This document shows positions 20,941 through 63,202 of a stretch of DNA of 63,202 nucleotides, in pieces (positions within the stretch are counted from its first letter, which is position 1; every line of letters starts with the position of its first letter). The notes under the pieces are model-generated. The model did not search any database, was not told the DNA's origin, and saw nothing but the letters and a program-made list of their open reading frames with translations. Both the position numbers and the translations under genes were made by a program. This DNA is from Gracilariopsis chorda (lineage: Eukaryota; Rhodophyta; Florideophyceae; Gracilariales; Gracilariaceae). The stretch lies in assembly GCA_003194525.1 (NCBI GenBank), contig NBIV01000396.1, positions 1 to 63,202 of the forward strand, written 5' to 3'.

Positions 20941-21254
20941 TATGCAGATGAAGAGCATCGCATTCGAGCCTATCAAGCAAAGCCACGCAGCACATATCAC
21001 TGACAGCCGCCACTGCGCTCCTAAATACGGAATGAGAGCTGCATCGAGATGCGTTTCCACCTTCACAACGGAACCGCCTCTCTCGGATGCATCGCAGCGC
21101 TGACGGGACGCTCGGCATGCGCCGTGGTCGCTCCACCTGTACTTCAAACGCGCTTCTGCGATTGGATAGCACTCTTTCCTTCGTCTCGTCGCGCTTCTTG
21201 AATCCGACTTCCTCGTGTACCTTGAGACAGAGCAACAGCCAAGTTCAACTCGAG
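20941..21254 (+). promoter_or_regulatory. Conserved 5' region of family gene D
   Basis: The upstream block TGCAGATGAAGAGCA...CCACGCAGC (20941-20980) and the leader block GCGCCGTGGTCGCTCC...TACTTCAA (21119-21148) both match other family members. The frame of gene D is open upstream to 21087, but the homologous ATG is at 21255, so this part is taken as leader. Confidence 0.55.
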
Positions 21255-22313
21255 ATGACTTGTGAAAACCGCCGCAACAAGCGTGAACGCGCCGCATCCT
21301 CCGTCGATTTCAACTCCCGCAAGCTGCGCCGCCTCGATTTTGATGCCCACGAACAGGCGTCTTCGTTCCCCTCTATCCCACCAACAGATGCGCCCGTCTC
21401 TTTCGTGCCGGAAAAATCCCCACGGGCCTACACTGTGGACGCAGATGATATTCTGCGTATGTTCTATTATCGCTCCCCCCCTCCCTCACCACCAGCGGTA
21501 CCAATGCGCCCCTCCCGTCTGGTCAAGCCGGAAGGGTTTCTCGGGGCGATAACAAACCCAGGATTCATGAGCAACCGCGAGAGGGCTCCCCTCAGTTCTG
21601 GTTTGTATCGCGACTCCGCCCCACGCTCAACCGGTTCTCGTCAGTGCTCCCCGGCGCGTCCCGAATACATGGCGTATCGTCTTGACGCCTACAGGACGCC
21701 GTCGCCGGCTCCCGCTCCGGTGGCCTTTGACATGTCGCCTAGTGACTGTCAACCCACTGGCTCTTCTTCAAGTTCGCAGGTCTGTTCACCCTACAGAATA
21801 ACGGCCTGCGAACACCCAACGGAAGGCGCTAGAGCCCCGAGCTCACTTTCATTGGAGCCGCCAAGCAATGCCCAGCTGCTGCCTCCACCGTCTCCCCTCC
21901 CGATGCCTATCACTGAAGGCAGCGTGGAGGACACATCGCCCACCACCGCTATCCGAGTCGCTAACGTCTCGACGCGTGCGCCAACCGTGGACCGCGCCAA
22001 CCTCGCTCCACGTGAGCGGCCTCGGAAGAAGGCAAGAATCGATGCTGGTATTCAACCTTGCGAATTTGATTTTCCTTCAGAAGCCGCTATTTCAGCACGT
22101 ATCGAGCGCTACGAGTCGTCTTCGCAGTGCAGTGAGAACATCGCGAAAGAACGGTCACCGAGTCCGCCCCCTCGACGGATGCGACAACCACGCAGCACCC
22201 CACAAGTCGCACCCTCGCAGACTCCGGGACGTACCGACTCTATCGGCAATGATGATGGGAGGAATGCTGAGCATTATCATCATGTGAACGGTGCTGTGCA
22301 AAAAGAAGGGTAA
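21255..22313 (+). CDS. Pro/Ser-rich family protein, member D
   Basis: A 352-aa frame. The start ATG lies in CTCGAGATGAC, identical in context to gene E. Order of motifs: basic N-terminus (RRNKRERAASS, SRKLRRLDFD); YTVDADDILR (21429-21458); RSPPPSPP; RPSRLVKPEGFLGAI; YRTPSPAPAP; a second basic patch RPRKKARIDAGIQPCEFDF, whose DAGIQ aligns with DAGTQT of C and DMGTQT of E; then a Ser/Pro/Arg-rich tail. It is the most complete YTVDAD-type member. The stop is TAA inside GGGTAAGTGG, which is also a good 5' splice donor. The same frame continues after the stop with VVVVVGSCAETKD, reminiscent of the SIM tail of E. Whether the stop is real or intronic is open. Confidence 0.65.
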   Translation: MTCENRRNKRERAASSVDFNSRKLRRLDFDAHEQASSFPSIPPTDAPVSFVPEKSPRAYTVDADDILRMFYYRSPPPSPPAVPMRPSRLVKPEGFLGAITNPGFMSNRERAPLSSGLYRDSAPRSTGSRQCSPARPEYMAYRLDAYRTPSPAPAPVAFDMSPSDCQPTGSSSSSQVCSPYRITACEHPTEGARAPSSLSLEPPSNAQLLPPPSPLPMPITEGSVEDTSPTTAIRVANVSTRAPTVDRANLAPRERPRKKARIDAGIQPCEFDFPSEAAISARIERYESSSQCSENIAKERSPSPPPRRMRQPRSTPQVAPSQTPGRTDSIGNDDGRNAEHYHHVNGAVQKEG

Positions 22314-33708: not shown

Positions 33709-36024
33709 TTAATCTGAGCTGTCTGAATCCGCAGAGGGTTCACCTTGCTTTCGCAAGCCAGAATGTTGCTCAGTTTTTTCGTCAAGAACAAAGGGGAGGC
33801 TAAGTTCAACTTCTCTCTGATCTGAGCATGCATCTGAGCTGTCCACTGTACCCAAACCAGTTCTTCCACTTTCCAAGATTGTGTTATGCACAGAACCTAC
33901 CTTCTTGATTGGAATTGGACATGTATCTGTGACAACCTCCCCAACTTCTGAAGTTGTTCTCTCCTCAGCCAAAATTTTAGGAGCAATAATCCGGACTCCT
34001 ACATCCTCAGCGTATTTCGAAGTACTCATCGCATTCGTACATCCCTTTCCGCTCTGAGCAGTTGTACACCCTACGTCCTCTACACCATTCGAGACATTTG
34101 CTGACATCACGCCCACACAAGGAGCCGGCCTCTTGTAAAATGGAACCAGAGTCGCTTCGAATACATCCCAGGGAATGGTCGTGTCTTGGAATACCTTCCT
34201 TGCAGTCCATTCTTTAAGCCTCCCTTGCATAGAAGTTATAGCAGATTGATATCTTGCTAGGCACACGTCGTTCTGAACCGGGTTCAGCTCATGTGTATGT
34301 GGAGAGTTCCTGGAAACCTGCCACATCATGGAAGAACGCCTAAGGTTGGCGGAAATCACGGTTCTGCAGGAATGAGGTGGCTTATATCGAATACAACGAA
34401 GCCTTGCACTGATCAGAGTACTTCGTTGAACATGTTTTCTACAGATCGGTCTGAATCGATGTACTCCAAACAACTCGCCTGCTTTTGAAAGCTCGTAAAC
34501 AAAGTAAGGAAGATCTTGGGTTTCCTTAGGGTCTGTCACACCTGTCGAGGTTTGTATTCCGTGGTCTTTGTCATCCACGTTCGAGACGTTCACTTGGCTC
34601 CTGCTCTTTGTGCCCCATGGCGTAACGCGACACCCATTACCTTCCCCCCTACTCGCTCCAGCTGCTGTCGTAACCATCTTTTCATGGTTGGCCACTACTG
34701 CTTGCAGTAACCCATTAATAAGTTCCGCAACGGAGAGTGAGCTATCCTTGAACCTGATTTTTCTAGGCCTATGGTGAACAAATGGGGAGTCATTGGAACC
34801 ATTAGAGTACCAAGTCTTCTCAGCGTTACGAATCGCTTCAATTCTCTGCCAACGATCTTCAGCTCTCGTTGCTTTCTTTCTTTTCTCCCCATCCCCCATC
34901 TCTTCCGTTCCCATTTCAGTTGCCTTGAACTCATCCATTACAAGTTCCCTTGTACTCAAAACCTCCCCTTGCTCTTCAAAATTATCGTCCTTCTTTTCCC
35001 CGCTAACATTGCCGTCCGAAACGTATTTCGCTGCACTCCTCGATACGTTCTCCATCGCTTCATCTCTCCTGCGTAACCACTGTTTGCGTTGCTTATGCTG
35101 AAATACTGAAACTTCCGCTTCCGTCACTCCGACATCACCTTTCTCCTCATATGCGTAGATGATGTTCATCAGCCGACATCTCGCCGACGCCCATTTGTAC
35201 TTATCGGTAAGTGCACTGTCATAGCCGGAAGCGAAGGTTTCCTGCGGTAGATAACCAGTATCGGAAGCAAATGTACTGCATGCAGCCAGAACATAAGCCC
35301 CACAGCTGTAAGAATCGGGCTGCTTTTCGAATTTAAGATCATCAAGAAGATAGTTCTTCTTAGATGCAGTCCACTGCACTCTCTTACGAGGAAAAGCATA
35401 GTCAAACGCCGCTTTGAAAAACTCAAGAACGTATCCGGGGCATTTCCATCCAATGCTATCACCAAACCTTACAACTCGCGATTCAACTCTCTGCAAAGAG
35501 TTTGGAAATCGATGAGCAAAGATCATACCCCAGTGCTTGTTGTCGAAGTTCAGTGGAACTACAACCGTTGTAATGTCCGCATTACCTTCAAACAGACGCC
35601 TTTGAAAAGGCTCGACGAATGTATCGAGATGTACCTTCTTGTATGAAGGCCTCTTCTTTTCAGCATAGAACGACTGCGACATACCAATAAGATATGCTCC
35701 GGTGACACAGCTGCAGAATACTACTCCTTCCTTCGGTCGCATATCCGTTATTCCTGAAGTAATGAGCACGTCACACATTAGTTTCTCCGGATAGCAGTTC
35801 TTCACGAAGATATTAGAGCTGCCTTGGTTTCGGTCGTTGATAAACAGTTCGGCAAGATGTTTTCGAGCTGCCGTTACACAATTTGACATCTGCGAGGTCT
35901 CAAAGATAGGCCCCGTAAATGCTTCTAGATCCCGAAGAAAGTTGTCAATCTCCTTCCTTTCAGAAAGAGTGAGAAGCTTATAACTTGGACGATCATCCCC
36001 ATTATCTTTCGATGGAGCCCTCAT
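33709..36024 (-). CDS. Ulp1-type (C48) cysteine protease-like protein of the MULE
   Basis: 771 aa from the ATG at 36024; the frame is open slightly upstream. The first third is a Ulp1/C48-like peptidase fold: NFDNKHWGMIF supplies His (about residue 164), VRFGDSIGW supplies Asp (about 189), and EKQPDSYSCGAYVLAA supplies the oxyanion Gln (about 235) and catalytic Cys (about 241). Members of this clan process SUMO or similar ubiquitin-like proteins. The middle is charged and probably disordered. Near residues 540-590 there is a second Cys/His group (CIRYKPPHSC...HTHELNP) resembling the transposase DNA-binding module. It is the first gene in the element. Its role in transposition is unknown; deSUMOylation of silencing factors or of the transposase is speculation. 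Confidence 0.9.
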   Translation of the reverse strand: MRAPSKDNGDDRPSYKLLTLSERKEIDNFLRDLEAFTGPIFETSQMSNCVTAARKHLAELFINDRNQGSSNIFVKNCYPEKLMCDVLITSGITDMRPKEGVVFCSCVTGAYLIGMSQSFYAEKKRPSYKKVHLDTFVEPFQRRLFEGNADITTVVVPLNFDNKHWGMIFAHRFPNSLQRVESRVVRFGDSIGWKCPGYVLEFFKAAFDYAFPRKRVQWTASKKNYLLDDLKFEKQPDSYSCGAYVLAACSTFASDTGYLPQETFASGYDSALTDKYKWASARCRLMNIIYAYEEKGDVGVTEAEVSVFQHKQRKQWLRRRDEAMENVSRSAAKYVSDGNVSGEKKDDNFEEQGEVLSTRELVMDEFKATEMGTEEMGDGEKRKKATRAEDRWQRIEAIRNAEKTWYSNGSNDSPFVHHRPRKIRFKDSSLSVAELINGLLQAVVANHEKMVTTAAGASRGEGNGCRVTPWGTKSRSQVNVSNVDDKDHGIQTSTGVTDPKETQDLPYFVYELSKAGELFGVHRFRPICRKHVQRSTLISARLRCIRYKPPHSCRTVISANLRRSSMMWQVSRNSPHTHELNPVQNDVCLARYQSAITSMQGRLKEWTARKVFQDTTIPWDVFEATLVPFYKRPAPCVGVMSANVSNGVEDVGCTTAQSGKGCTNAMSTSKYAEDVGVRIIAPKILAEERTTSEVGEVVTDTCPIPIKKVGSVHNTILESGRTGLGTVDSSDACSDQREVELSLPFVLDEKTEQHSGLRKQGEPSADSDSSD

Positions 36025-36803
36025 CGATAGAAATCGAAACAAACCGCGTAAAAGTAAACCTTCTAAAGAAAATAAACCTGTTTAACACACAAAATCTACC
36101 ATAGCCGTACCATCACGAGATCACGCTAGAGCATTTGCAGATGGTCAATGGTAATCGCGCGACAGAAGGAAGCAAAGAAGAGAAAGACTTCGGTAAGTTG
36201 TCGGAATCGGATACCATATAAAGTTCGGAGAGTAGAAGATAAGTGGCACCGAACGTGCAATGAACTTGCCTCCTGCGTGCAATGGACGCGTAACCGTTAG
36301 CCGATGCGATGGAAGGGTGGCAGGAGCTGATTGGGGATATGAAATAAGCGATAGAAGCGAGGATGAGTAGCGCGGCCGGGTAAAGCCGACCATAAAATAA
36401 TGCGAGAATGTGAACTTACGTCGAGAGAAAGTAATTGCGGCGGCAAGAAGAAGCAATAAAGTTGATTCAGTATAGCAATGATCGAGAAACGCAGCGTTAA
36501 ATAGAGATACGTTCAAGACAGGCGAATCGCGGAAGCGGTAAAAGCAATGATGCGTACCTCAATCGAGAAAAAGTGCAAAAACGAGTAGAGCACAAATCAA
36601 GAGAGCGGTACAAAAAGTACTGGAGATGAGTTTGGATCGCAATGCTAGAAAGGTGGCGAAGAGGTGTGATTTGTTTAGGATAGGACGGCCAGGGAAAGGG
36701 CAAGGAAATCATTTGGCATACGGTGGAGGAGGGAAACGGCGACGAAACGTGATCTAGTTGGGATAAGACAACAGGGGAGAGACTGGGCGGGCACAAGAAT
36801 GAT
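36025..36803. other. MULE 5' subterminal region
   Basis: Non-coding by eye, purine-rich on the plus strand. It lies between the right terminal repeat and the protease gene and should hold its promoter. Confidence 0.55.
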
Positions 36804-47850: not shown

Positions 47851-48726
47851 ATGAAGTGTGGAAAACGCCACAGCCGGGACGAGTGCTCTTCCTCAGAATC
47901 ATTTCTCAGCCACAAGAAGACCTGCCCAAATCCTCCCTCTCACCATGAATCCGTTGTTTGCTCCCCAACGCGTCGCCGAGAAAATTCGGCGAACATCGTG
48001 CCCGGATCCCCCGCACCATACACCGTGGACGCAGACAGTCTGAATCGTGGTGTTCATTTCCCGTCACCTCCTCCCACACCCCCGCTAAGGCCAAGGCGCC
48101 CCTTTCGTCTTGTCAAGCACCAAGGCTTCCTGGGCGGGATTTGCAACGAAGCGGAACAGGCGTCGAATGGAGTGGCGCAAATCGACTATGGATCATATTG
48201 CCATGAGGCTGCGCCACTCTCATGCATTGTATCGCCTAGATCTTCTCGACCTGCACCGTATGTGTACAGGACTCCGTCACCAGGACCTGCCCCGCTGGTT
48301 TTTGATAAATCGCCAAGTGACTTCCAAACCAGAGCGGACTCGCCACCGAGGCAGCCCGTCTCTGTTCTCTACAGCATAGCGGTTTATGAGTCACCCGAAC
48401 CATCCAAAGCAGATACAACTTCGCAGTACGCTGGTGCTCATGGTACTATTCTACCCGCCGGGACATGCGCTTCACAATGCGATCTTCCAGCACCTCATTT
48501 ACCCCAGCACACAGCAGATGAAAACATCAGTGAATCGCTGATGAGCCTTGGTTGCAGGTCAGGCTATCGTATCCTGCAATGCAGTGAAGTTCCAGCGAAT
48601 GCCTTGAGCTATCAAGAGCAAGGGGCATCCCGCGTACTTGGGTTTGATCAGTGTTGTGTCTTGGCAGTGTTTCGACCTAGTTTGTCACATTCCGGCGCTG
48701 ACGAGTCGTGCGTTCCCGAGGCGTAG
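47851..48726 (+). CDS. Pro/Ser-rich family protein, member G
   Basis: 291 aa from an ATG in the context TTTGCGATGAAGTG, shared with B. Motifs in order: MKCGKRHSRDEC, HKKTCPNPP, YTVDADSLNRG, PSPPPTPP, RPFRLVKHQGFLGGI, YRTPSPGPAP, SPSDFQ and ESPEPSK. The tail ADENISESLMSLGCRSGYRI is conserved in sequence in B but lies out of frame there. Substitutions between B and G are many, but the frame is kept for more than 600 bp, which supports coding. The protein is rich in Ser-Pro and Thr-Pro sites and probably unstructured. There is no TQT motif and no SIM tail, unlike C and E, so the family seems to have two C-terminal types. Confidence 0.65.
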   Translation: MKCGKRHSRDECSSSESFLSHKKTCPNPPSHHESVVCSPTRRRENSANIVPGSPAPYTVDADSLNRGVHFPSPPPTPPLRPRRPFRLVKHQGFLGGICNEAEQASNGVAQIDYGSYCHEAAPLSCIVSPRSSRPAPYVYRTPSPGPAPLVFDKSPSDFQTRADSPPRQPVSVLYSIAVYESPEPSKADTTSQYAGAHGTILPAGTCASQCDLPAPHLPQHTADENISESLMSLGCRSGYRILQCSEVPANALSYQEQGASRVLGFDQCCVLAVFRPSLSHSGADESCVPEA

Positions 48727-51605: not shown

Positions 51606-53500
51606 TTACACCCAGCTCTTACTCTCAACTATCTTCTCTGGCTCGTAATCATCTTTCCATATTCCGTTGCAGCATATGTGATCGATCCTCCTTTGGATCT
51701 CATAATTTCGTTTTGTCAGACCATCCGCAAGGTTTCGACTGCCTTGAGTCCACATCAACTTGTCTAATTCCCCGCATTCAAAGCTGTTTCGAATGCGTTG
51801 CACTGTAGGTCTTAGACGATATTCACGACCTTCGTGCAAAGTAGTAATAGTGTCCCATAGCGCTTTTGAGTCCACCACTATTTCGTGCGTTATTGAACAA
51901 TCGTTGAAAATTGACGTGAGGGCTTTCTTCAAGTAGTATCCCCTGTCATCAGCGAATGCGCATGCTAGGACTTCAGCACCGTATGCTGAATATGATATAC
52001 GTTTCTGTTTGTGACTGGATCAGTCGATGGTATGAAAGAAAGTCTTGTTTGCGGTGCATATCTTCAGACCTTGTAAAATCCCGGACTGTCCGTATTCTAT
52101 GTCCTATCCGGCATGTGACGCATCTGAAAATGTTACAATTGATACGCCATGTGCACCTGAAGGGTTCAGAAAGCGAAGAACTGGATTCATGCGTAGTAGT
52201 TCTGAGACCGATATGTTGGCTTCGATAAGGTCTTGCACTTTCAAGTTCGCGATTCGTTGCTGCATCAATGAGGCGATCAGGGATGCTTGGGGCATTATAG
52301 CATTACCAAGGTATAGTAATGTTCCTGCAAGAGATCTAAACATGTTCTTCTCGCTTTCTGTCACTATGGAGTGTACTTCTTTCCTTCTCTTTCTCTCAAG
52401 ATGTATAAGCTTCAGTCTTTTCATGTACCTGTGCATTGACATCGTTATTGTTCCTAGCCTGTCTTGTTCTATCTCAAACCCGCTGAATAATATTTTCCCA
52501 TCGATTACTGTCTTTCCGATCACGAATCTCTGCCCTATGTTCGTGATGAATTGCTTCGAATCTTCGATGTTACCAGAAATGAGAAAATCGTCGGTGAGTT
52601 TGGCGATAATGAGTATAATCTTGCCCTCCCTACGTTTAACGTATAATTGCCCAATGCCTAGTACGCGTTCGAGGCCGCCATGTGTTAGCATCCAGTGCTC
52701 TACGACCTTCATCCATTGTCTTCCTGCCTCAACGATGCCGTAAGGTAGCTTAATAAGCTTCCATAATATCCCTCGTCCTCCGTTCCATTCTCTCGGTGGA
52801 CGAACAAATATATCTCTCCTGATTGGGCCGCTCTGAAGGTAGGCCCCCGTGATATCAATCGCTGCGAGTCGAAAGCCCAAGAACGTTGTGAGTGAGAGAA
52901 GAAGTCGAACGATGTCTAGCTGCACATTGGCCGAATCTTTACGGATCTCGTCCTTTTCCTTGTCCCGGTTGCCGTGTGGTACTATCCTCGCCTTCATCAT
53001 GCGCTGGCCGTCTTCGTCCGTCTTCACTTTGTATACGACATGAGATGTAATTACGTTTGCGTTCTTTTCTACCTCACTTTCTGGTATTGGTGTGTAAGCA
53101 TTTGCCCAGTTGTTGTAGTGTTCTTTTTCGAATGCATCGTCGAGAACCCAGGGTGGTGCGAATGACAGGTCGTTCCTGTTGAGTTGTTTAGTTGCAACAT
53201 GTTCGAATATGTTTGTCAATACTCTCTTTTTTTCGGAGCTCAACTCGTTTTCTGTTGGTACTTTCTGTTCTGTTCTTCTTTTAGCGTGTATGCCAATATC
53301 CCGGTGCTCAGACTCATCTTCGGTCCTTCGTGATGATATCAAATGAGTGTTCACCGGAAGCACTTCGTGTTCTTGGTCGGTCTCCGAGATCTCTTCTCTC
53401 CCCCCTGCTTTCGGTGATTCATTGTTGTATCCGAGGGCGTCTTCCAATGTGTCTTGCATCAGTTCGGCTGCCAGAGAATTCTCTGGTACTAGTCGAATGT
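51606..53500 (-). pseudogene. Ty1/copia pol (RT and RNase H), truncated by gypsy-2
   Basis: On the minus strand the frame from 53500 to about 52104 encodes a copia RT: DITGAYLQSGPIRRDIFVRP, then KLPYGIVEAGRQW and the catalytic line KLTDDFLISG (Thr-Asp-Asp). The RNase H part at 51606-51932 has VVDSKALWDTITTLHEGREY and LADGLTKRN, typical of copia. Stop codons lie between them, including a TGA in place of Trp in HTIDxSSHKQKR (near 52018). The coding stops abruptly at 53500, where the gypsy-2 LTR begins, so the integrase half should lie beyond the right window edge. Confidence 0.88.
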
Positions 53501-54307
53501 TGTGGTGCAATGCCCCAAAGGGGAAAAACACCGAAAGACGTCCGGGATCTTCCTCTCACGAGGTGAACCCAGTTGGGTAGAGCCCTCCCAGAGGTGTCAC
53601 GGCGAAGCCGGTTTGTAAGACCAGGGACACCTGTCGCGACTCGCGCAGGGAGGTGAAGGCGAAGAATCGGTATCCGCGTGAGCGGGGCGTGATCCTCAGT
53701 AGAGGTATGTTTCCACGTAAGTGGGGGTGTGTGAGCGGATGCGCACACGAGGGCCGCGGATAGCGGGAGGTGCTACCCTAAAAAGGGGAAAGAGGAAGGA
53801 CGAGTGGGTCGCGAGAGCGACGAGTAGATACGGCAATGCCGGTGGACAGGACTCCCTATACAGGGCGAAACACCAATATGATTGGAACAATTAGTACTCC
53901 CAATGATGGGTCTCCTTTAGATGTGCAAGGGGGGTGAACTTCCGTACTCTACGGTGCTTCCCTCCAAGGAGGAGTTGAGAACACGCGGAGGCGGTAAAGC
54001 TCAGAGCCAATTCCCCAGGTTGGGGTCCCTTGTTGGGGAAGGTTTACTGGTGCGACGGCAGTGCGCCGTCGCACTAAGTACTAGCTTCCCAGAAATGGGT
54101 GTGAAAATAATAAATAAAATTAACTAAAATACTCCACATTCCGTGGCAACATCCACTACTGTGGCCAACCGCCAATTGACCCAAAACCGTGTCCCACGTG
54201 TCCATACCCACCATTGTGGGGCGTAGTTCATATACACACTACACAACCGATAATATCGGGAAAGCGTTCAAGTACCCAGAATCCCTCCCTGAGGGCGTTG
54301 CACTTCA
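53501..54307 (-). repeat. Gypsy-2 3' LTR
   Basis: About 807 bp. It starts TGTGGTGCAA and ends TTGCACTTCA, which are inverted near-matches (8 of 10). The start recurs at 63157. The right border is inferred from the CA end plus the adjacent C-run (PPT on the minus strand). Palindromes such as CCCCAAAGGGG and CCTCTCACGAGG occur throughout, so the palindrome pattern is not limited to codons. Confidence 0.8.
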
Positions 54308-54320
54308 TATCCCCCCCCTA
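54308..54320 (-). promoter_or_regulatory. Gypsy-2 polypurine tract
   Basis: The minus strand reads TAGGGGGGGGATA next to the inferred LTR end. Confidence 0.65.
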
Positions 54321-54363
54321 AGACGGGAAAACGACCGCGGACGCGGAGGATTCCCAGACGAAA

Positions 54364-55113
54364 ATGGGTGATAAAAGCGCGTGCGCCGTCTCCGGTTCTC
54401 CGGTAAATCCCTCTGCACCAGAGTCAATACCTCCTGCTACTGCAGCTGTCATTTCCTCGCCTCGCCTTCGCGCTTCCTCGTCACCGAGCGTACTCCGACA
54501 AACAACATCAACGACCCTCGAAGAGGGAGAAATGAACAACGACAACAACATCAACAACCACAGCCAACCTCCGAGGTCTCTCGGGCGATACACCACCGGT
54601 TTCCGGTCGGTTCCCCTGCCTCAGGGCGATCAACCTCCGGTACAACCGGGAAATACGGCTGCTGAAGCCGACCATCCCTTCGCATTACCACCTTCGGTGG
54701 GATCCTCCGAGGAGGCGCGCGAGCTTCGCGATACGCCCCGGCATGTGCCGGAAGACCACCCGGTGGGGTACGTCGATTCCGACGACTACTACCGCGCATA
54801 CGGCGGGGATGACCCAATGGTCGATAACGAACCGGAAGAACCCGGGGAGATGGACGTAGAGGAAACCGGCGCTAGCGCGGAAGCTTTCCCAGAGGGGGCA
54901 TCTCCGGCCGAGCCGGCTGCTGACCCTTCGGCGGCAAGTGCCGGACCTTCTATCCCCAGCGGGGTGACGGCGAATGAAAACGAAATCATCGCACGTTTCC
55001 TCCGGGGTGCCGGTCTTAGCGCTGCCGAGGTATCGGGGGATGTCACCACCATGGCGGACGCGTTGGCCTACCGCCTCGCTGGTGGTTACGCCCCGGACGA
55101 TGGGGGTGAGTGA
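54364..55113 (+). CDS. Gypsy-2 antisense ORF, acidic protein
   Basis: 249 aa from the ATG at 54364, 56 bp inside the 3' LTR and on the strand opposite to gag-pol. The N-terminus is Ser/Pro-rich, the centre acidic (DNEPEEPGEMDVEETGASAE), and the C-terminus may form helices (NENEIIARFLRGAG...DALAYRLAGGY). A poly(A) signal AATAAA lies at 55201-55206, 88 bp after the stop, and the LTR supplies an A/T-rich region (54104-54126) upstream. It does not overlap the chromodomain frame. Antisense or extra ORFs in this position are known from some plant gypsy elements with unknown function. No domain recognised. Confidence 0.55.
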   Translation: MGDKSACAVSGSPVNPSAPESIPPATAAVISSPRLRASSSPSVLRQTTSTTLEEGEMNNDNNINNHSQPPRSLGRYTTGFRSVPLPQGDQPPVQPGNTAAEADHPFALPPSVGSSEEARELRDTPRHVPEDHPVGYVDSDDYYRAYGGDDPMVDNEPEEPGEMDVEETGASAEAFPEGASPAEPAADPSAASAGPSIPSGVTANENEIIARFLRGAGLSAAEVSGDVTTMADALAYRLAGGYAPDDGGE

Positions 55114-55200
55114 AACCTCTGGTCCAGTTTCCTGGTTCCTCTTTCCCTGGCTATGCCAGTTAGTGTAGTGTAGTATTGTGGGGAGCTAGCTGCTCCCTTG

Positions 55201-55206
55201 AATAAA
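55201..55206 (+). terminator. Poly(A) signal after antisense ORF
   Basis: AATAAA on the plus strand, 88 bp downstream of the antisense stop codon. It supports transcription of that strand. Confidence 0.4.
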
Positions 55207-55304
55207 CTTTCCCGTTTAGAACGGTGCTTCTCGGTTGAGTTCCCCGTCTTCGACGGACCTTGTCTTGTTATCCTTTCCTTTCGCTCTCCGCTCGCGCGGC
55301 AACG

Positions 55305-55720
55305 TTACCCAACTTGGGCATTTACCAGCGTGGCTGGAGCTGCAGTTCCCGTTTGACGGTGGTATCGCACGACCTGCGACCGTGGGAGGTGTTCCATTGG
55401 CTCCCACGTATCCCCACTGGGGTCGTACCCGTACCAGCGGACGCGGTATTGTAGAATACCATCCTGGTCCCAGGTGTGTCCGACAAGTCGGTCTACTACG
55501 AACTCTCGTTCGTAGACCTGCCGGCCGTGCCGGGTGGTGGTTGTAATCCCTGGCGAGGGTTGCCCGCGGTGCGGTATAATGTCCCTTAGCAGGGTGTTCG
55601 GCGATAACTCCGACGTTGCCGTGCGCTGTCCTAGTGGCCGCTGCTCATGCGGGAAAATATCCCTCAAGAGGGTGTGTGGTGCCACGGTTTTCACCGGCAA
55701 GTCGTTCCCCAGAGGGGTGT
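55305..55720 (-). pseudogene. Gypsy-2 chromodomain, out of frame with integrase
   Basis: The minus strand encodes YEREFVVDRLVGHTWDQDG followed by LQYRVRWYGYDPSGDTWEP and LPRSQVV, a clear chromodomain, the module that chromoviral integrases use to target marked chromatin. The frame differs from the integrase frame that ends at 55691; the switch falls in a palindrome-rich stretch (55690-55720). The aromatic residues expected for methyl-lysine binding are mostly present. Confidence 0.8.
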
Positions 55721-57895
55721 CGTTGTTTCCGTCTTCACGGTAGGCCGGGCGAACCGCCAGTCGGCGGGGGACTTGGGTTCCGCCTTCGCGGTTGAGCGCA
55801 CGAACCGCGAGTTTGCGGGAAGATGACCGCTCCTGCGGGATCGGCATTTCCACAATCCCCTGGGGGTCCCGTGCGACACGGTGATTGGGTGGCAAACCGC
55901 CTCCCTGCCAGGCGCACGAGCGCTCTGCACCATACGTTCCGGCGATGCCGTGGTGTCCCCGGCTACTGACGGGTTGCCTGGGGCTAACTCCGGTACACCG
56001 GTATTTTGGTCAAAATTCCCCTCTGGGGGGTTCCGGGCAGGTGCCGATGACACCCTTTTCAGGGGAATTGCCGCTGAGCGCAGTGCACCATCTCCGTGAG
56101 GAGGAGCAGCGTCCGGTACGACCGGTTTCGAGCGTGCGATGGCGCGCGTTATTCCCGAGTTCCTCGGTTCTTCGCCACAGCGATGCGGGGGTTGGCGCAA
56201 ATTATTCCCCGTAGCGGGGGCTTTGATTCCGTCAACGACGGGAGGCGTTTCCGGTGCTTGCGAGCCAGGGCTTAAAGCTTCGACTGCAGCTTGGCCGCCT
56301 TTTTCCCCAAGAGGGGTGTGGGTATTCCCCTGTGAGGCCGGCGTATCTGGGCGCCCCTTCTCCGCAGGGCGCGGGTCTGATCGACCTGATTGAACCGCTT
56401 CCGCGGGGACTTCCGCCAACGGCGGCTTCGAGGCATCGGGCGATTGCCTTTCCGCTGCTGCGGTATTGGAGTGAGGCTTCTCGTTTTCCCGGGACAAACG
56501 GTGTATTTGCCGCTTTTGCAGGGCCTGTGCGTCTGGTTCCTGTTGCACAGCACTGCCCGGGAACGGGGGATTAGTGTCGCGTGACATACTCCGTGCTCCA
56601 CGGTCAGTGTTCCGTATGTTACGGTGTGTTTCCCTTTGCGACGGTGATATCGTTCCTCGAAAACGAGTGTTCTCCTCCCCCTCCTTAGACGGAGCGGCGG
56701 GATAAGGGATAACATTCCCCGCCTGGCGGGTATAGATGCGCGCCAGTGGGGCAGACGTGGTAGGGGCGGGCGCTGAGGGGCCCGAATTACCCGGCTGAGC
56801 CGGTGAGTCCGACAGAGTCGGTAGGTCTGAGAGTCCCCGGCTGGGGTGTGGTAGTACCGTAGGTCTAGTACTCCCGGATTGTTCCGGTGTAGCGGAGTCC
56901 GTAGAAACGGGGTTGCCTGGATCCAGGACTACCTCTGACGAGGGAGGAGGGGCGAGGACAACACGATCACGGGAAATCCGTTCGTGCGTGTCCCCCATCT
57001 CTACCACGACAGTGTCGGTGTTAACAGAGATCACCTTGAAGGGTCCATCCGCCACAGGCGAGAGTTTGTGACGCTTCTCCCGTTCCGGGTTGTAGTATTC
57101 CTTCCTGATGAAGACGTAGTTATTTGCCCGAATCGGGGATGGTTTTCCTCGCACGCGAGCGTCAAAATCGCGCTTGTAAGCGGCTTGGGCCCGTGCCATA
57201 GACTTCCGCGCAGCGGGGACCAGCTTGGAAAGCCATCGCTTCCATTGCTGCCGGTAGATACCCACAGATGGGAAATTGTCCAAGGTAGCTTGGGGTTCCA
57301 GCGCCACAGGCGGGGGTGTTCTAGATAGAACTAACTCGAATGGCGAAACTCCGGTAGTCCGGTGTACCTGCGTATTGTACGCGTAGGTTACCGCATCAGC
57401 GTAGAGATCCCAATTCGTTGGGTGGTCAGCGACGTAGGAACGTAACGCCGCGAGTAACGTCCGGTTAAACCGTTCAACTTGCCCATTACACTGGGGGTGG
57501 TAGGTAGTCGTGAACAAGTTCTTGACATCCAGGATGCGACAAACATCCTGGAAGAACTTGCTCACGAACTGCTTCCCGTTGTCAGAGAGCACCTCTACAG
57601 GGGGACCGTAGACAAAAATCCAGTGCGTCACCAGAGCCTGGGCCACCGTGAGAGCGGTTATCCTCCGAAGAGGGACAGTCCGTACCAGCTTAGAAAAGCG
57701 GTCGGTAATGACAAGTAGAAACTTGTTTCCAAGTTTCGTGGTGAGTAATGGTCCGAGAATATCGATCGCGATAAACTCGAGCGGCGCCCTTGCGGGGAAT
57801 AGTTTCATCTTCTTCGCATTTTTGCGGAGTTTGACGCGATTCTTCGCGCATTCGCTACAAAACCGCACAGTTGCGTAGCAATCCACCGCCATTGC
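55691..57895 (-). CDS. Gypsy-2 integrase core and long linker
   Basis: An open frame of about 735 codons. It starts in the integrase zinc finger (DCYATVRFCSECAKNR) and has the catalytic core with AIDILGP, LSDNGKQF and NGQVERFNR supplying Asp, Asp and Glu. A GPY-like C-terminal module (RHKLSPVADGPFKVISV) follows. The remaining 400 residues are Pro/Ser/Arg-rich and unstructured, unusually long for a chromovirus. The first half of the zinc finger is in another frame (see 57890-59820), so one small indel near 57890 breaks the protein. Palindromes lie every 20-30 bp, including a 22-bp-paired hairpin at 57510-57565. Confidence 0.85.
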   Translation of the reverse strand, partial: AMAVDCYATVRFCSECAKNRVKLRKNAKKMKLFPARAPLEFIAIDILGPLLTTKLGNKFLLVITDRFSKLVRTVPLRRITALTVAQALVTHWIFVYGPPVEVLSDNGKQFVSKFFQDVCRILDVKNLFTTTYHPQCNGQVERFNRTLLAALRSYVADHPTNWDLYADAVTYAYNTQVHRTTGVSPFELVLSRTPPPVALEPQATLDNFPSVGIYRQQWKRWLSKLVPAARKSMARAQAAYKRDFDARVRGKPSPIRANNYVFIRKEYYNPEREKRHKLSPVADGPFKVISVNTDTVVVEMGDTHERISRDRVVLAPPPSSEVVLDPGNPVSTDSATPEQSGSTRPTVLPHPSRGLSDLPTLSDSPAQPGNSGPSAPAPTTSAPLARIYTRQAGNVIPYPAAPSKEGEENTRFRGTISPSQRETHRNIRNTDRGARSMSRDTNPPFPGSAVQQEPDAQALQKRQIHRLSRENEKPHSNTAAAERQSPDASKPPLAEVPAEAVQSGRSDPRPAEKGRPDTPASQGNTHTPLGEKGGQAAVEALSPGSQAPETPPVVDGIKAPATGNNLRQPPHRCGEEPRNSGITRAIARSKPVVPDAAPPHGDGALRSAAIPLKRVSSAPARNPPEGNFDQNTGVPELAPGNPSVAGDTTASPERMVQSARAPGREAVCHPITVSHGTPRGLWKCRSRRSGHLPANSRFVRSTAKAEPKSPADWRFARPTVKTETTTPLWGTTCR

Positions 57896-59820
57896 GGGCA
57901 ATAGAAATCCCTTCGCAGGGTTAGGTAGAGTTTCCTCCCACCTGGGTGACCTCCAATGGGGGCGTAGTGTGATAGATGTAACACCCGCGATTGCAGGGAA
58001 TGTGGTACCACAATCTGTGGGCGGGCTTCGACCTTTCTTACGAGGTAGCCTTTGTCGTTTACCCCGAAAGGGAGATCTTCACCACCGTTGATACGGGCAC
58101 GAATTCTCGTACAGAATGGGTCGCCGAATTGTTCTCGGATCATTTCTTCCGGTGATACCGGTACAAAGTATCCCGGTAACGGGTTCTCAGATTTATCTCG
58201 CGATGCGAGTAGTTCGTCAAAATCAGCATCCTCGTCCCAGGTTTCTGGCCTAGCCTCGACGGCATGTTCCGGATCATCCGGGTCTATAGCCATGAAGCAT
58301 GGGACTTCATCATCCTCCGTTGGGAGTGCTTCCCCACTTGTGGGTAACCGCGATAAAGCGTCGGCCTGAGTGTTCTGCGCACCCTTTTTATAAATGACTT
58401 GAAAGTCATATTCCGCGAGGCGGAGTCTCCAGCGCATGAGGCGTCCCGACGGGTCGGAGATATTCATCAACCACCTCAATGAGGAATGATCCGTGTACAC
58501 GGTGAAGTGAATTCCCATAAGGTAGGGGCGCAGAGTGGTCATCGCCCATACGACGGCGAGGCACTCTTTCTCCGATACGGAGTAGTTCCGCTCATGAACA
58601 TTGAGCGAACGTGACCAATAACCAATTGGATGTCGTTCCCCCTCGGGGGTGGTTTGAAAAAGAGCACACCCGACTTGGTAGTCGCTCGAGTCCGTATCTA
58701 CGGAGTATGGCAGCCCAAGTTTTGGGAGATGTAGGATTGGTGCTGATGTGACAGCCTCCTTTAAGGAGTTAAAAGCTTCCGATTGCTCGGGCGTAAATGT
58801 TCCCAGTTTTGGGGGGTTCCCCTTTCGCAACAACGCGTTCAGGGGCGCTGCAGTATCCGAAAAGTTCGGGATAAACCGTCGATAGACGTTGACCAGCCCC
58901 AGAAAGGAGCGCAGTTCCGTTTGAGTACGGGGTTCTTTCGCCTCAACGAGGGATTTGACTCGAGCTTTCTCGATCGCTAACCGTCCAGGACGGATATTGT
59001 GACCCAGATACTTCACAGTATCTGTGAAAAACTCGCATTTCCTCAACTTGAGGGTAATTCCCGCATCGCGGAGTACGGTCAGCACGTCTCGGACGTGAGT
59101 GAGATGGTCGTCCAACGAGTTGGAGAAGATGATAATATCATCAAGGTAGACCAGACAACTCCGCCACTTAAAGCGGTTGAGTAGAATATCTACTGCACGC
59201 TGAAAGGTGGCGGGGGCGTTGGTTAACCCAAATGGCATCCGCTTGAAGCGGTACGTTCCTGCATGGCAGGTGAATGCGGTTTTGTCGCGATCCTCCTGTC
59301 TGACAGGTACTTGCCAATATCCCCAATTGGCATCAAGGGCCGTGAACACGGTGGCGTCTCCAAGGGAGTCAATGCACTCGTCCATACGAGGGATGGGGTA
59401 CGTGTCCCTAACAGTCACGGCATTGAGCCGGCGGTAGTCGACACAGAACCTCCAGGTTCCGTCAGCCTTTAAAGCCAGTACAACTGGGGATGCCCACGGC
59501 GATTGAGCGGGCTCAATCACACCTGCGCGGAGCATCTTGTCCACCTGGGACTGCTCCTCTTCCCGAGCTTTCGGACCTGCCCTGTAAGGGGGTTGTGCAA
59601 CCGGTCGCGCACCGGGGATTAAATCGATCCGGTGTTCCGTTGCATCAATCTCGCCAAGCGAGCCATCCCACACTGTGGTGAATTCCCGTAACATAGTACG
59701 GAGTTTGTCGCGGTGCGACTCTGGCACGTGGCTGAAGTCCAGCGCTTCAAGTGCTTTTTCCGGATCAATCCGGTCATTGCTCGATGGAGCATTGTCCTGT
59801 GGAACAGGTGTGGTTCGCAA
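57890..59820 (-). CDS. pol: Gypsy-2 reverse transcriptase and RNase H
   Basis: An open frame of more than 640 codons. RT blocks: WASPVVLALKADGTWRFCVDY, then DANWGYWQVPV, PFGLTNAPATFQ and the intact catalytic box VYLDDIIIF. RNase H begins YSVDTDSSDYQVGCALFQ and contains VYTDHSSL; the connection ends ADALSRL. It runs into the integrase zinc finger (HYAPIGGHPGG...FYCPQ) and then loses frame near 57890, at a palindrome CCGC-CATT-GCGG. The frame has no ATG at its start and follows the protease frame with a shift near 59840. The RT core seems catalytically competent. Confidence 0.88.
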
Positions 59821-60689
59821 TTCCGAGTTACTCGGTATGTTCGACGCTGAAGTAGCGGTTTCCTCCCCTCCTTAGACTTGACGTCTTCGGACGGCGGGGT
59901 GAACTCCTCAGAAGAGGTGGTAACTCCGAGTACATCGGCGGCTGTCATCTTCGTTGGCAGCATTCCCATAGGATGGGGGGTTACACTCCCAATTACTTGG
60001 TGTTTGACCAGATACTGGGGGTGTTTGCCAAGGTTGGCAACCAATATCCGGAAAGGAACATCCGGGGAAATGGAGACAATTCCATTAGCCAGCGCCAGCT
60101 GGATTTCTCGTACAACGAGGCGAGGGGTTGTATAACCCGAAGACCGTGTTGACGGGAATTTACCTGTACCCAGACTTGGACTCAGCCGGTATAGAAACCG
60201 AGGCAGCGACGCGGAGCTTGGTGGACTCGCGGGACGCGGGCGGTGGTTCCTGCGCAGCAGGAGCGGAACTTGTTTCCGAGAGGACCGCTTTAGCGGGCGG
60301 CGAACAATCGGAACCGACGATCCGTCGTCAAGTTCTACACGCCTGAGGCGGGGCCTGATTGCGTCGACAAATCTGTCGCAGTAATCACATCCCAGTATGA
60401 CTGGTGCTGCCAGTGAACGGCAAACGATGAAGTCCAACTTCACCACAGATGTACCAAGTCTCACGACGAGGTCCACTGTGCCCACCGTTTGTAACGGATT
60501 GTTGTTCGCATCCGAAATGTCGGGGACCGCGTCAGAGCGGATACGCGACCGCACAAGCGGGGGTAACAATGATTCCACGACAAAGTTGGGGCCTGCACCT
60601 GCATCCAGGACGGTGAGAAACCTCACCATAAACTGGGGGTCAAGGCCAAGGTCGGCATAGACCTTATAATTGCGCTTGGCCAAGACCAA
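59820..60689 (-). CDS. Gypsy-2 aspartic protease
   Basis: In this frame the line FLTVLDAGAGPNFV holds the active-site loop, with Asp-Ala-Gly in place of Asp-Thr/Ser-Gly. After about 60 residues VILGCDYCDRF gives the conserved Ile-Leu-Gly segment. The following 180 residues are linker towards RT and include a folded-looking line (RILVANLGKHPQYLVKHQVI). The protease processes the polyprotein. The Ala substitution is seen in some active retroviral-type proteases, so function is possible. Confidence 0.75.
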
Positions 60690-60876
60690 GACTCTACCGG
60701 GAATCCGGGATTTTTACTCCGTATCCACGGGCGACGCAACACACCGAGGTGCGCAGAGTCCGCGTCAGCGGTGTCTTTCCTCGAGAGGACTTTCACCGGG
60801 GAGCGAGGCGAGGACGCCTCGGGCGCCAACAGCCTCGTTTTTGAGGACGCCTCTCCCAAAGGGGAGACTCCCTCAG

Positions 60877-63051
60877 TTAGTTTTCCGCCTTCGGCGGTGG
60901 GTTGGTTTCCTCGACAACGAGTGCTTCATCCCGTTGACGGGGGTTTCTATCCGCATAAGCGGGGGTTGCAACGGATGGTTGCGTGATCTCCCGAATCGGG
61001 GTGTATGAAGCTTGCCGCGCACGCGGGGTCTGTGGTAGGGCGTGAGAAAAGTCCGTTTTAGCACGGAGGTAGGAAGCCGTCGGGACGGAACGTTTCTCCT
61101 CTGGAGTGAGGGCCTCATAATTTGCCACCACCTTGGCCATATCCTTCAGTGAACAAATACACTGAGGAGAGGTATGGCCATGGGCGTAGCACAGGTGGCA
61201 AATGAGAGCCAGCACCGCGACACGCGGATTATTATTCCGAGTATCGGAGAAGCGAACCGCAGGGCGGGTGTCAGTCCATCCAGGCCGTTGATAACGGGAT
61301 TGACCGTTTGAAAACGGGAGTCGTTGGGGTTGAACCGACTGTTACCACCGTATAGAACGGGATCTTCTGTTCCCGTATCATGGGTCATCTCCGTCGTTGA
61401 CGGTAACTCACTGGTGGGTATCGACACACCATCCCCTGCGCTAAATGCACGGTATCAAATCCCTGTCCAGGGTTCCCATCCGCGGTGAGCGGGAGAGAGG
61501 AAGCTTCGCTTTCCAGCAACAACGCCTTGGCGGATTTAGACCGATTGTTCGGAGTTCTTGCACGAAGTGCATCCCCTTCCGCTCGAGCGTGTTGGACCAG
61601 CTCGAGGTAGGTGATCCTTCGCTTGTCCTCCCGATAACGGGTAACTAAACTCCGGATTGCCGGGTCAAGACCATCAATGAACATGGTACTGCGCTCCCCA
61701 GCGGGGTATACGTTACCACATCTGTGGAAAGCCTTGTTAAGGCGCACCGAGTAATCGGTCTCGGTCTCTCCAGCACGCTGGCGTGTATCTCGCAAAGCGA
61801 GGATAGCCTGCTGAATAGCGGTGTTGGTGGCGTAGGAGCGCAGAAGATACTGCACAGCCTCCGGCCAGCAAGTAACTCCTCCCTCGGAGGCGCGAGAAGA
61901 TCCTCTGACAGAGGTGTATTGGTCCTCGGCCACTCCCGTAAGAAATACGGTAAAGCCAAATAGGCTTGTCCCTCATTCATACCGAGGATATCGGCCTCCG
62001 CTACAAAGCGGGATAGGAAATCCAGTACTAGGACTGGGTCCTCTCCAGTAAAATAACTGGTTGCGGAGCGAGAGCTGCATTCGCTTAATGCATTCTCGCA
62101 CCTTTCCCGTACCACGGGCGTACGTCCAAGTGACGAATCTTCAAGCCGGTAGTACCGGTATGATAAAAGCTTCCGGTAATCCGGGTTTGTCGGTTTCAAT
62201 TCCCGGAGACCGGGGTGTCTTCTCCCCTTCTGGCGGGTTCGGACCACACCTTCAGTGGCCGATGACCGCTTTCGAGCGGGAGGAGTAGCCTCGCTTCTCG
62301 TCCTCCGAGTCGGAGTCCGAGAGCTCGAGCTAACCGAATGGTTTCGGGGTGAGTCCGACGATGTCGAAGGAATCGGAGTCCGAATATTTTCGGTGATGTT
62401 TCCGTCGGTGACGGCGTTTCTTCTTCCCAGCAAGCTGGTCGTTGTGCGATGCCTCGTTTACCGGATCACCCGGGGATGGTTTGTCCATGAGGCACGAACT
62501 GCTCCAGCGTCTCCAGGCGGGCACCAATCCGATCAAATCGGGCTTCAACTCCTTCGATGAAGGCGGCGGGTTGTCCCAAACTCTCCAACACGGAGTTGAC
62601 GTCAGACCGTAAAATACGGAAGCTCCTCGGCGACCTCCTTTTACGGGGGTTGCCGAGACCACCTCTTGGAGGGATTTTAGTTCCCCTACAAGGGTGTCAT
62701 GGGCGGTCCACAGAGCGCGGACCTGGGATTCCAGGGAAGTCCCTGGGGGGTGTTATCGCCCGTTCCACGGGGGCTTGAAGCCGCGACAGCGGGAGCAGGC
62801 CGGGGTGCCTGGGGCACTGCGGCAACAGCCGGAGTCGATGCTGCATTCCCCTGCGGGGGTGATAACGAGGGCAAAAGGAGGTTCCGGGGTTCCCGGTCGG
62901 GGGTATCATTCCGCGATGAAGCGGCGCCAGCACGGCTGGAACTTGTCCGTATAGGGATACGGGGTACGAACCGAACTTCGGAAGTGTCCGCGTTGTCGCG
63001 GGAGCGACTACGCGTAACCACTGGCTCCGCGTCGGAGGGATTTCTCGACAT
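60877..63051 (-). pseudogene. gag: Gypsy-2 gag, broken into several frames
   Basis: It starts at the ATG at 63051 (MSRNPSDAEPVVTRSRSRDN). Pieces in order: a coiled-coil-like segment in another frame (ARFDRIGARLETLEQF, about 62505-62552); a Ser/Arg-rich segment and the start of the capsid (VLDFLSRFVAEADIL, 61965-62040); the capsid centre in a further frame (WPEAVQYLLRSYATNTAIQQ, YREDKRRITYLELVQHA); and a canonical CCHC zinc knuckle CHLCYAHGHTSPQC near 61160-61200. At least four frame changes separate them, too many for programmed shifting, so this gag is dead unless the sequence has errors. Confidence 0.75.
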
Positions 63052-63140
63052 GAGAAAATACCGTTACGACGGGAAACGATCACGGAACTTCCGGTGAATG
63101 AAAACAAACCTCGTAAGAGGGAAAACAAAAACCGATTCTA

Positions 63141-63153
63141 GGTCGGGAGACCA
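63141..63153 (-). promoter_or_regulatory. Gypsy-2 primer binding site
   Basis: The minus strand reads TGGTCTCCCGACC three bases inside the 5' LTR. The TGG start fits a tRNA 3' CCA end. Confidence 0.7.
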
Positions 63154-63156
63154 CTT

Positions 63157-63202
63157 TGTGGTGCAATGCCCCAAAGGGGAAAAACACCGAAAGACGTCCG
63201 GG
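63157..63202 (-). repeat. Gypsy-2 5' LTR, first 46 bp (cut by window)
   Basis: Identical to the start of the LTR at 53501-53546. The rest lies beyond the window. Confidence 0.9.

Follow-up and report, generated by a model that had tools for sequence, protein, structure and literature searches.

The window analysed is a stretch of 63,202 nucleotides of the red alga Gracilariopsis chorda (contig NBIV01000396.1), and positions 53501–63202 hold an LTR retrotransposon of the Ty3/Gypsy type with a chromodomain, identified by its LTRs and by gag, reverse transcriptase (RT), RNase H, integrase and chromodomain sequences. The element lies on the minus strand, as do all features below unless stated otherwise; its 3′ end is complete, its 5′ LTR is cut by the contig end and hairpins occur throughout. 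The 3′ LTR (807 nt, TG...CA; 53501–54307) was delimited from other copies, and the last bases of the 5′ LTR at the contig end (63157–63202) were recognized by a 47-nt direct repeat. A sequence beginning TGG, 3 nt past the LTR (63141–63153), is by convention presumably the primer binding site, and we take the stretch adjoining the 3′ LTR (54308–54319) to be the polypurine tract. Part of gag (61388–61972) matched PF03732 (Retrotrans_gag, E = 4.8 × 10−6), and a Gag zinc knuckle of the pattern CX2CX4HX4C was located at 61159–61200; more than one frame holds gag-like pieces in this copy. The pol region comprises a protease-like part (60003–60713; no match in the Pfam search) with an LDAGAGPN motif that we assume to be the aspartic protease site, the reverse transcriptase with RNase H and the start of the integrase (57805–59820, domain matches), the integrase core (PF00665; 55692–57901) and a C-terminal chromodomain (PF00385, E = 8.2 × 10−11; 55305–55895).

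An antisense open reading frame (ORF) between pol and the 3′ LTR (54364–55113, plus strand) is real—comparison with other copies identified it as a 249-amino-acid remnant of a conserved gene of about 609 amino acids. Other copies have approximately 1.1 kb of mid-gene sequence that is missing here; two further sampled loci (L079 and L082) also lack the middle, and all three copies have kept their hairpins. The antisense protein matched no Pfam family above the cut-off.

The original prediction that this element is rich in short palindromes was confirmed, and the excess is stronger than claimed. Across 53501–63202 we counted 238 stems of at least 5 bp (75.3, s.d. 8.8, in dinucleotide shuffles) and 57 stems of at least 6 bp with loops of 0–8 nt (20.2, s.d. 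4.3), neither count being reached in any of 100 shuffles. The ten stems that had been listed for 58981–59332, within the RT region, were all re-located at their coordinates, and an eleventh, overlapping stem lies beside them at 59012–59028 (11 against 0.63 in shuffles, reached in 0 of 300). The excess also survives control for the encoded protein: the RT ORF contains 44 stems of at least 5 bp with loops of 1–4 nt, compared with 7.7 when synonymous codons are permuted (44 reached in 0 of 300 permutations) and 9.9 when codon junctions are partly kept (0 of 60). Together, the dinucleotide shuffles and synonymous permutations rule out base composition, codon bias and chance as causes. Gypsy-1 and the copia fragment had been described as normal, which holds for stems of at least 5 bp (38 against 34.9 in shuffles for gypsy-1, 7 against 8.8 for the copia fragment); the host sequence at 1–22900 has 174 against 172, and 28000–52000 has 192 against 179. 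Neither of the outcomes named beforehand as refuting the observation was therefore seen. Stems of at least 6 bp are somewhat above shuffles in the remaining window as well (ratios of 1.4–1.9), so 5-bp stems with loops of 1–4 nt are the best discriminator.

Loops of 1–7 nt had been reported and are present, but the excess is confined almost wholly to loops of 1–4 nt. We delineated 258 non-overlapping hairpin units covering 34% of the bases of the element (mean in shuffles, 44 units). Their mean spacing over 9.7 kb is approximately 38 nt, wider than the predicted 20–30 bp, although a preferred centre-to-centre distance near 20 nt does exist (92 pairs at 16–23 nt against 62 expected, and 8 against 29 at 12–15 nt). 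Hairpins with CC...GG ends rise from 0–3 per kb before position 53 kb to 11–23 per kb in the nine full bins within the element, their onset coinciding with its edge. As predicted, LTR, gag, pol and antisense gene all carry units. Hairpin density is 10–16 per 500 nt across 19 full bins; this evenness is not significant by itself, being equalled by 6% of random placements in 500-nt bins, 15% in 300-nt bins and 27% in 1,000-nt bins.

The unit is a hairpin of 4–5 Watson–Crick pairs with a loop of 3–4 nt, mostly 12–13 nt in total, with 5′-CC...GG-3′ at its base and often followed by A on the genomic-RNA strand. In the window family it takes the form (A/C)-CC-NNN-loop3-NNN-GG-A, or has a 4-nt loop and one pair fewer, the flanking letters being preferences rather than rules. 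CC...GG hairpins of 11–14 nt number 189 (12.1 expected, reached by 0 of 200 shuffles), of which 20 lie in the LTR at 53501–54307 (0.9 expected). Among non-overlapping hairpins with stems of at least 5 bp, 80 have a total length of 13 nt (7.6 expected), and 13-nt CC...GG sequences with all three inner pairs Watson–Crick number 72 against 1.7 when the window element, L003 and L064 are pooled. Hairpin size is limited, outside gag and pol too: in the LTR and 3′ region (53501–55300) there are 30 stems of 5 bp (5.8 expected), 4 of 6 bp (1.7) and 1 of at least 7 bp. The sequences themselves vary widely. A single repeated motif or an inserted hairpin unit is ruled out, as 186 of the 189 CC...GG hairpins are distinct; 41 of the 64 possible CCNNN arms are present among 101. 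The fixed letters sit at the stem base and the loops are varied (34 kinds among 69 triloops, 57 among 70 tetraloops), G-poor and without clear motif, including an apical-loop recognition motif of the MS2 kind. Stems with one inner G·U or other mismatch range from near chance to about fourfold above it; G·U is tolerated no better than A·C, giving no preference in either strand direction, which argues against a model of stability alone. Such a lack of extra tolerance for G·U is unusual under RNA-level selection. No known RNA family reached its gathering score in 53400–63202. At the level of sequence, the genomic RNA carries many degenerate stem-loops of one type along its length.

The flanks of the hairpins distinguish the two strands. 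On the genomic-RNA strand a 3′ A outnumbers a 5′ T by 99 to 26 (P = 1.6 × 10−11), in the same direction in the LTR (12:3), gag (27:7), RT (15:6) and integrase (31:2). Inside the antisense gene the asymmetry runs against the coding strand (7:2 in the window, 16:8 in the C926 copy, and 11:1 and 13:1 in two related copies of a second family). It follows the genomic-RNA strand, antisense gene included; family 2 (12:16) and one flank of L088 (3:3) lack the rule. Sites for a dimer binding double-stranded DNA would suit the distance from CC to GG, about one helical turn, and yet the inner bases, not expected to be read by such a dimer, are complementary while varying from site to site (186 of 189 distinct), and the flank asymmetry is tied to one strand; we consider this reading very improbable.

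Folding of 120-nt windows showed the window element to be more stable than shuffles (mean z = −1.38, with 0.59 of 80 windows below −1; −38.5 against −33.9 kcal mol−1; host, −0.03), but revealed no strand preference (−1.38 sense, −1.25 antisense), and families 4 and 3 fold barely beyond shuffles (mean z = −0.33 and −0.24; gypsy-1, −0.30). A structured genomic RNA, one of the causes originally suggested, is the best fit given the 5-bp limit of most stems, the like treatment of G·U and A·C and the flank asymmetry, not as general stability but as a hairpin of restricted size whose base letters are set. The folding of the window element and the shortness of its stems could also reflect protection, with hairpins that guard the RNA against nucleases or small-RNA targeting but are too short for sensors of double-stranded RNA. 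We regard this as unlikely: families 4 and 3 bear hairpins with hardly any gain in stability, the sampled Gypsy elements beyond the clade have none, and CC...GG ends, family-specific letters and intolerance of G·U are left unexplained. The related suggestion of small-RNA silencing fares poorly, since it predicts that the remaining Gypsy elements of the host share the trait, and four of them (gypsy-1 and L070–L072) lack it.

Among the elements sampled, the hairpin trait is a property of one Gypsy clade. After the unit had been defined by inspection of the window element, we applied the definition to other loci and found it at 6–19 times expectation (10–52 units per locus of 1.9–4.5 kb) in L003, L006, L055, L060, L063, L064 and L088. 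All sampled families of the clade in the G. chorda genome bear hairpins, with base letters specific to each: CC in the window family (W), CC and CT in family 2, TC/CC/AC after A in family 3, and CT/TC/CC/CG in family 4. The Agarophyton chilense elements behind P0001 and P0014 also group within the clade. Four G. chorda Gypsy elements that belong elsewhere (gypsy-1 and L070–L072) lack the trait, as do nine of ten random genome pieces, the tenth being a copy. Four related contigs were found among prokaryote genome records: L051 is hairpin-rich in another dialect (no CC rule, odd loops), L049 is weak, and L050 and L052 show the trait weakly or not at all. We found no relatives in virus contigs, and the open-licence literature yielded no account of such hairpins from any red alga or LTR retrotransposon.

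The set of hairpins changes from family to family; of 44 in W, only 4–6 remain paired in families 2 and 3. In the proposed search for paired changes, where both sides of a stem changed between families, 166 of 345 pairs were Watson–Crick (123.6 with re-dealt partners; reciprocal comparisons that are not independent). At every codon position, stem sites and the remaining sites diverge equally fast. On the time scale of private and shared variants, recent changes show neither selection for hairpins nor their mutational making. The 80 variants found in two or more copies destroyed 17 hairpins (17.3 at random), so stems are not avoided; reverting 90 sites derived only in W destroyed 26 (21.3, s.d. 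4.4), no clear excess of gain, and reverting those derived in L064 destroyed 9 (11.4). Raw singletons of the window family seemed enriched in stems (45 of 125, against a site fraction of 0.25), an excess that disappeared once base and CpG were matched.

These data bear on hairpin-templated mutation, also suggested originally, in which the reverse transcriptase of the element would write hairpins by template switching (quasi-palindrome mutation) during cDNA synthesis; no function would be needed and dialects would reflect differences between enzymes. Such a process would account for perfect Watson–Crick stems in huge excess over one-mismatch stems, for a strand asymmetry (given a single direction of polymerization) and for hairpin turnover between families, and template switching is described as making perfect stems (PMC8794818). 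The predicted palindrome-completing mutations showed no excess: 353 private substitutions in 51 copies created 24 hairpins (20.0, s.d. 4.3, at random) and destroyed 69 (82.1, s.d. 8.3), and none of 35 private multi-base clusters was an inverted copy of neighbouring sequence. These counts have limited power against a rare process in the reverse-transcription phase, because many private changes probably arose after insertion. In one of five groups, family 4, private substitutions created 8 hairpins against 3.0. The narrow size of the hairpins (4–5-bp stems outside gag and pol too) and their CC...GG ends would be unexpected, and the asymmetry ascribed to the mechanism in rRNA stems, G–C over C–G, is the opposite of that seen here (PMC8794818). 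We consider templated mutation rather unlikely.

We tentatively favour, at somewhat less than an even chance, the reading that the hairpins are a repeated cis-acting signal on the genomic RNA, read by a protein of the element, probably Gag. An RNA-binding protein encoded by the element, most likely Gag with its zinc knuckle, would bind many hairpins along the RNA and thereby promote the packaging of RNA from its own element, or assembly with it. An RNA richer in units of the matching dialect would be copied at a higher rate, and units would thus accumulate wherever codons permit. Selection would act on the density of units and not on individual hairpins, which would account for the turnover between families. 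The reader might instead be the product of the antisense gene, as all nine sampled loci with a complete or partial copy of this gene (L083, L084, L087 and L088–L093, from two families) are hairpin-rich (z = 7.8–10.4), or the hairpins might act on reverse transcriptase itself (pausing, strand transfer or recombination), as pol segments look recombined between subfamilies. We think either quite improbable: the antisense protein has no domain assignment, and the window copy and the two others that lack the middle of the gene retain their hairpins.

A further and somewhat less probable reading is that the clade marks its genomic RNA as 'self' by a distributed code of hundreds of size-fixed small hairpins, in a dialect particular to each family. 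Dialect and a reader encoded by the element would co-evolve, and each family would then package or process its own RNA but leave aside RNA of its relatives or of the host. How a retroelement or RNA virus tells its own RNA from that of the host is an open question, and the usual answer is one local packaging site. An RNA saturated with one unit, with letters that differ between families, offers a natural series for testing recognition of self RNA. Were the cause mutational, the element would instead provide a striking example of protein genes into which a polymerase has written hairpins; under either cause, a second code governs about one-third of the bases in this protein-coding element.

Several known systems share parts of this picture. 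Plant Retand elements, also of the Gypsy type, have an antisense ORF placed, as here, after pol and before the 3′ LTR (PMC11963269), but are described as a non-chromovirus lineage, from which its chromodomain sets the red-algal element apart; most Retand elements are described as carrying the TRP28 domain (PMC11963269), and the red-algal antisense protein matched no Pfam family above the cut-off. Cyanobacterial HIP1 palindromes are likewise dispersed at very high frequency, but HIP1 is described as one fixed octamer (PMC4390886), whereas nearly all red-algal hairpins differ in sequence. Mitochondrial genes of Nematomorpha contain perfect inverted repeats inside conserved protein genes, reported at up to 284 bp (PMC6649704), compared with stems of mostly 4–5 bp in a nuclear mobile element here. 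Hairpins made by template switching, as characterized in PMC8794818, are similarly perfect and free of G·U; the red-algal element differs in its narrow size, its opposite base asymmetry and the lack of an inverted-copy footprint in recent changes. Genome-scale ordered RNA structure (GORS) is marked by folding beyond composition that pervades an RNA genome, an excess seen in the window element but hardly in two unit-bearing families (3 and 4); the red-algal trait is a fixed, perfect 12–13-nt unit with set ends rather than a folding energy. In the dispersed packaging signals of single-stranded RNA viruses (MS2 and others), for which the coat protein is proposed as a cooperative reader, many small stem-loops of one type are likewise spread across the genome (PMC6281560). 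Unlike the signals described there, the red-algal hairpins have a unit about every 38 nt, motif-free loops and fixed letters at the stem base, avoid G·U, come in family dialects and ride on an LTR retrotransposon whose reader is a candidate only.

The hairpin-rich Gypsy element W (53501–63202, − strand) contains many more short stems than its controls. All ten stems originally read in 58981–59332 are present, letter for letter, and 53501–63202 as a whole holds 238 stems of ≥5 bp (75.3 expected, s.d. 8.8) and 57 of ≥6 bp (20.2 expected, s.d. 4.3) with loops of 0–8 nt (100 dinucleotide shuffles). The original observation withstood both of the refuting conditions set for it. The excess persisted when the protein was held constant (44 stems in the RT ORF of W versus a mean of 7.7 under synonymous codon permutation, with none of 300 permutations reaching 44), and comparison sequences lacked it: gypsy-1 had 7 stems versus 7.8 under the same permutation, and 5-bp stems in host DNA, gypsy-1 and the copia fragment were near chance in dinucleotide shuffles. 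Other large stretches of the window have stems of ≥6 bp at 1.4–1.9 times their shuffles, a small effect that leaves the result for W intact. Elsewhere in the window, three ORFs (14230–14892, 21087–22313 and 47851–48726, +) have a stretch in common (YTVDAD..., SPPPTP...) and probably represent a repeated protein family, and two large adjacent ORFs (30973–33588 and 33709–36042, −) seem to be a transposase of the MULE type and a partner protein carrying a protease-like region.

Nearly all excess stems in W have loops of 1–4 nt (maximum at 3 nt), and the excess falls on stems of 4–6 bp, with a few longer stems also exceeding chance. Stem closure over loops of 1 or 2 nt is physically impossible; with the inner pair opened, such W stems are 4–5-bp hairpins with loops of 3–4 nt, like the rest. 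In the non-overlapping set with ≥5-bp stems, a total length of 13 nt occurs 80 times (7.6 expected) and lengths of 11, 12 and 14 nt 21–29 times (5–8 expected). Most stems have CC at the 5′ base and GG at the 3′ base, with variable inner pairs and loops. Counted with a stem of ≥4 bp and a total of 11–14 nt, CC...GG hairpins number 189 in W (12.1 expected; 186 distinct sequences) and 20 in its LTR alone (0.9 expected). This definition was made on W after inspection; at loci independent of it (L003, L006, L055, L060, L063, L064 and L088), CC...GG hairpins reached 6–19 times expectation. Among 13-nt CC...GG sequences pooled from W, L003 and L064, every inner pair was Watson–Crick in 72 (1.7 expected), with one G·U in 8 (2.1), one A·C in 7 (2.2) and another single mismatch in 27 (10.3).

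The per-kilobase track of CC...GG hairpins over the window jumps at the edge of W, within which 258 non-overlapping units (44 expected) cover 34% of bases. Each of the 19 full 500-nt bins holds 10–16 units (6% of random placements are as even), and the preferred centre-to-centre spacing is 16–23 nt. The 3′ region of another copy (C619), including a segment absent from W, has 6–12 CC...GG hairpins per 400-nt bin in all eight full bins.

W encodes a gag domain, zinc knuckle, RT, RNase H, integrase and chromodomain; its 3′ LTR occupies 53501–54307 and its 5′ LTR is cut off at the contig end. Its gag and pol are spread over several frames; in other copies, open frames around RT reach 1,887 aa. Between pol and the 3′ LTR, this chromodomain Gypsy clade has a conserved antisense gene, of which the window copy retains a 249-aa remnant (54364–55113, +) after losing about 60%, with about 1.1 kb deleted. 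The full-size protein (about 609–613 aa; at least 125 matches scored) is found in many other copies, including L085:59–1897 (−), C619 and C926. Relatives at 39–59% identity include another G. chorda family and Gracilaria domingensis (Gracilariaceae); no Pfam family matched the protein above cut-off. All nine sampled loci with a whole or partial antisense gene were hairpin-rich.

The flanks of CC...GG hairpins are asymmetric, with A after the hairpin in 99 cases versus T before it in 26. In the LTR, gag, RT and INT, this 3′ A excess follows the genomic-RNA (pol-sense) strand, and it does so in the antisense gene too, although that gene is coded on the opposite strand (3′ A to 5′ T, 7:2 in the window copy, p = 0.09; 16:8 in the C926 copy, p = 0.08; 11:1 and 13:1 in two related copies of a second family). 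For that second family, L090 and L091 show the gene running against pol, their chromodomain being encoded on the opposite strand; for L088 and L089 this orientation is assumed from kinship. Local coding direction therefore does not explain the excess, nor does a strand-symmetric DNA process. The 3′ A rule was absent from family 2 (12:16) and from one 1.5-kb flank of L088 (3:3).

The genome is identified as Gracilariopsis chorda by protein BWQ96_03215 (P0122), whose residues 1–491 match contig C30 at 100%. W is abundant in this genome, with at least 131 RT matches at 97–100% identity (4,242 first-look candidates). Among 20 further RT loci drawn from the Pfam match list, 17 belonged to the clade (RT 70–84% amino-acid identity to W) and all 17 were hairpin-rich (z = 3.6–6.7), with base letters varying between families; the other three (L070–L072, 35–40% identity) were not hairpin-rich. 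Nine of ten random 3-kb genome pieces had z = −1.4 to 2.4 (the highest being L041), and the tenth (L043, z = 10.8) proved to be a W-family copy. CC...GG hairpins in those nine pieces and L070–L072 numbered 16 versus 15.0 expected. Across L009–L038, two subfamilies with nearly identical RT differ by ~23% in the integrase part, the final ~1 kb of the 3.9-kb loci, as would follow recombination between lineages of the element.

Elements from outside this genome were sampled in four contigs (L049–L052) that are filed under bacterial MAGs and carry eukaryote-type Gypsy pol, likely as contamination. L051 (under a Robiginitomaculum MAG) had 48 stems versus 13.6 expected, but most of its loops were odd and the CC rule did not hold; the signal was weak in L049 (RT part, z = 1.7) and weak or absent in L050 and L052. 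The RT tree unites W and families 2, 3 and 4 with two Agarophyton chilense proteins in a single clade (98/100), within which W, family 4 and those two proteins group with modest support. Outside that clade, but inside the wider group, fall L051, whose row is short, and another A. chilense protein (P0045). Separately, L049:6292–7947 (under a Moorena MAG) contains nine dispersed 19-nt palindromes near a related Gypsy pol, centred on GGCGCC-N3-GGCGCC or close variants, with 8-bp stems and a 3-nt loop.

Only 4–6 of 44 W hairpins keep their pairs in families 2 and 3 (64–65% nucleotide identity). Paired changes were seen in stem arms: pairs changed on both sides were Watson–Crick in 166 of 345 cases, taken from overlapping comparisons (123.6 when partners were re-dealt), and stems diverged like other sites at each codon position. 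Individual hairpins are thus mostly lost and others appear, with a degree of compensation. A mutational origin in reverse transcription, by palindrome-completing changes, seems unlikely: 353 private substitutions (51 copies, five groups; random controls matched for base and CpG) created 24 hairpins versus 20.0 (s.d. 4.3) and destroyed 69 versus 82.1 (s.d. 8.3), and none of 35 private multi-base clusters was an inverted copy of its neighbour (control, 0.22). Results varied by group, with family 4 creating 8 versus 3.0. Variants common to at least two copies (n = 80) destroyed 17 (17.3 expected) and created 6 (4.6), and sites derived solely in W or solely in L064 gave no clear signal. From these variant and cluster counts, present-day mutation wears the hairpins down, and their build-up must have had another cause. 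Selection is not directly visible in the variant data, and a rare process during reverse transcription may be involved.

Protective folding appears quite improbable as the role of the hairpins. Together, hairpin size, the set letters at the stem base, the dialects that these letters form between families and the strand tentatively suggest a signal on the genomic RNA that would be recognized by a reader, with Gag as the natural candidate. A protein of the element is a likelier reader than a host protein, since such hairpins are missing from the host's other Gypsy elements.
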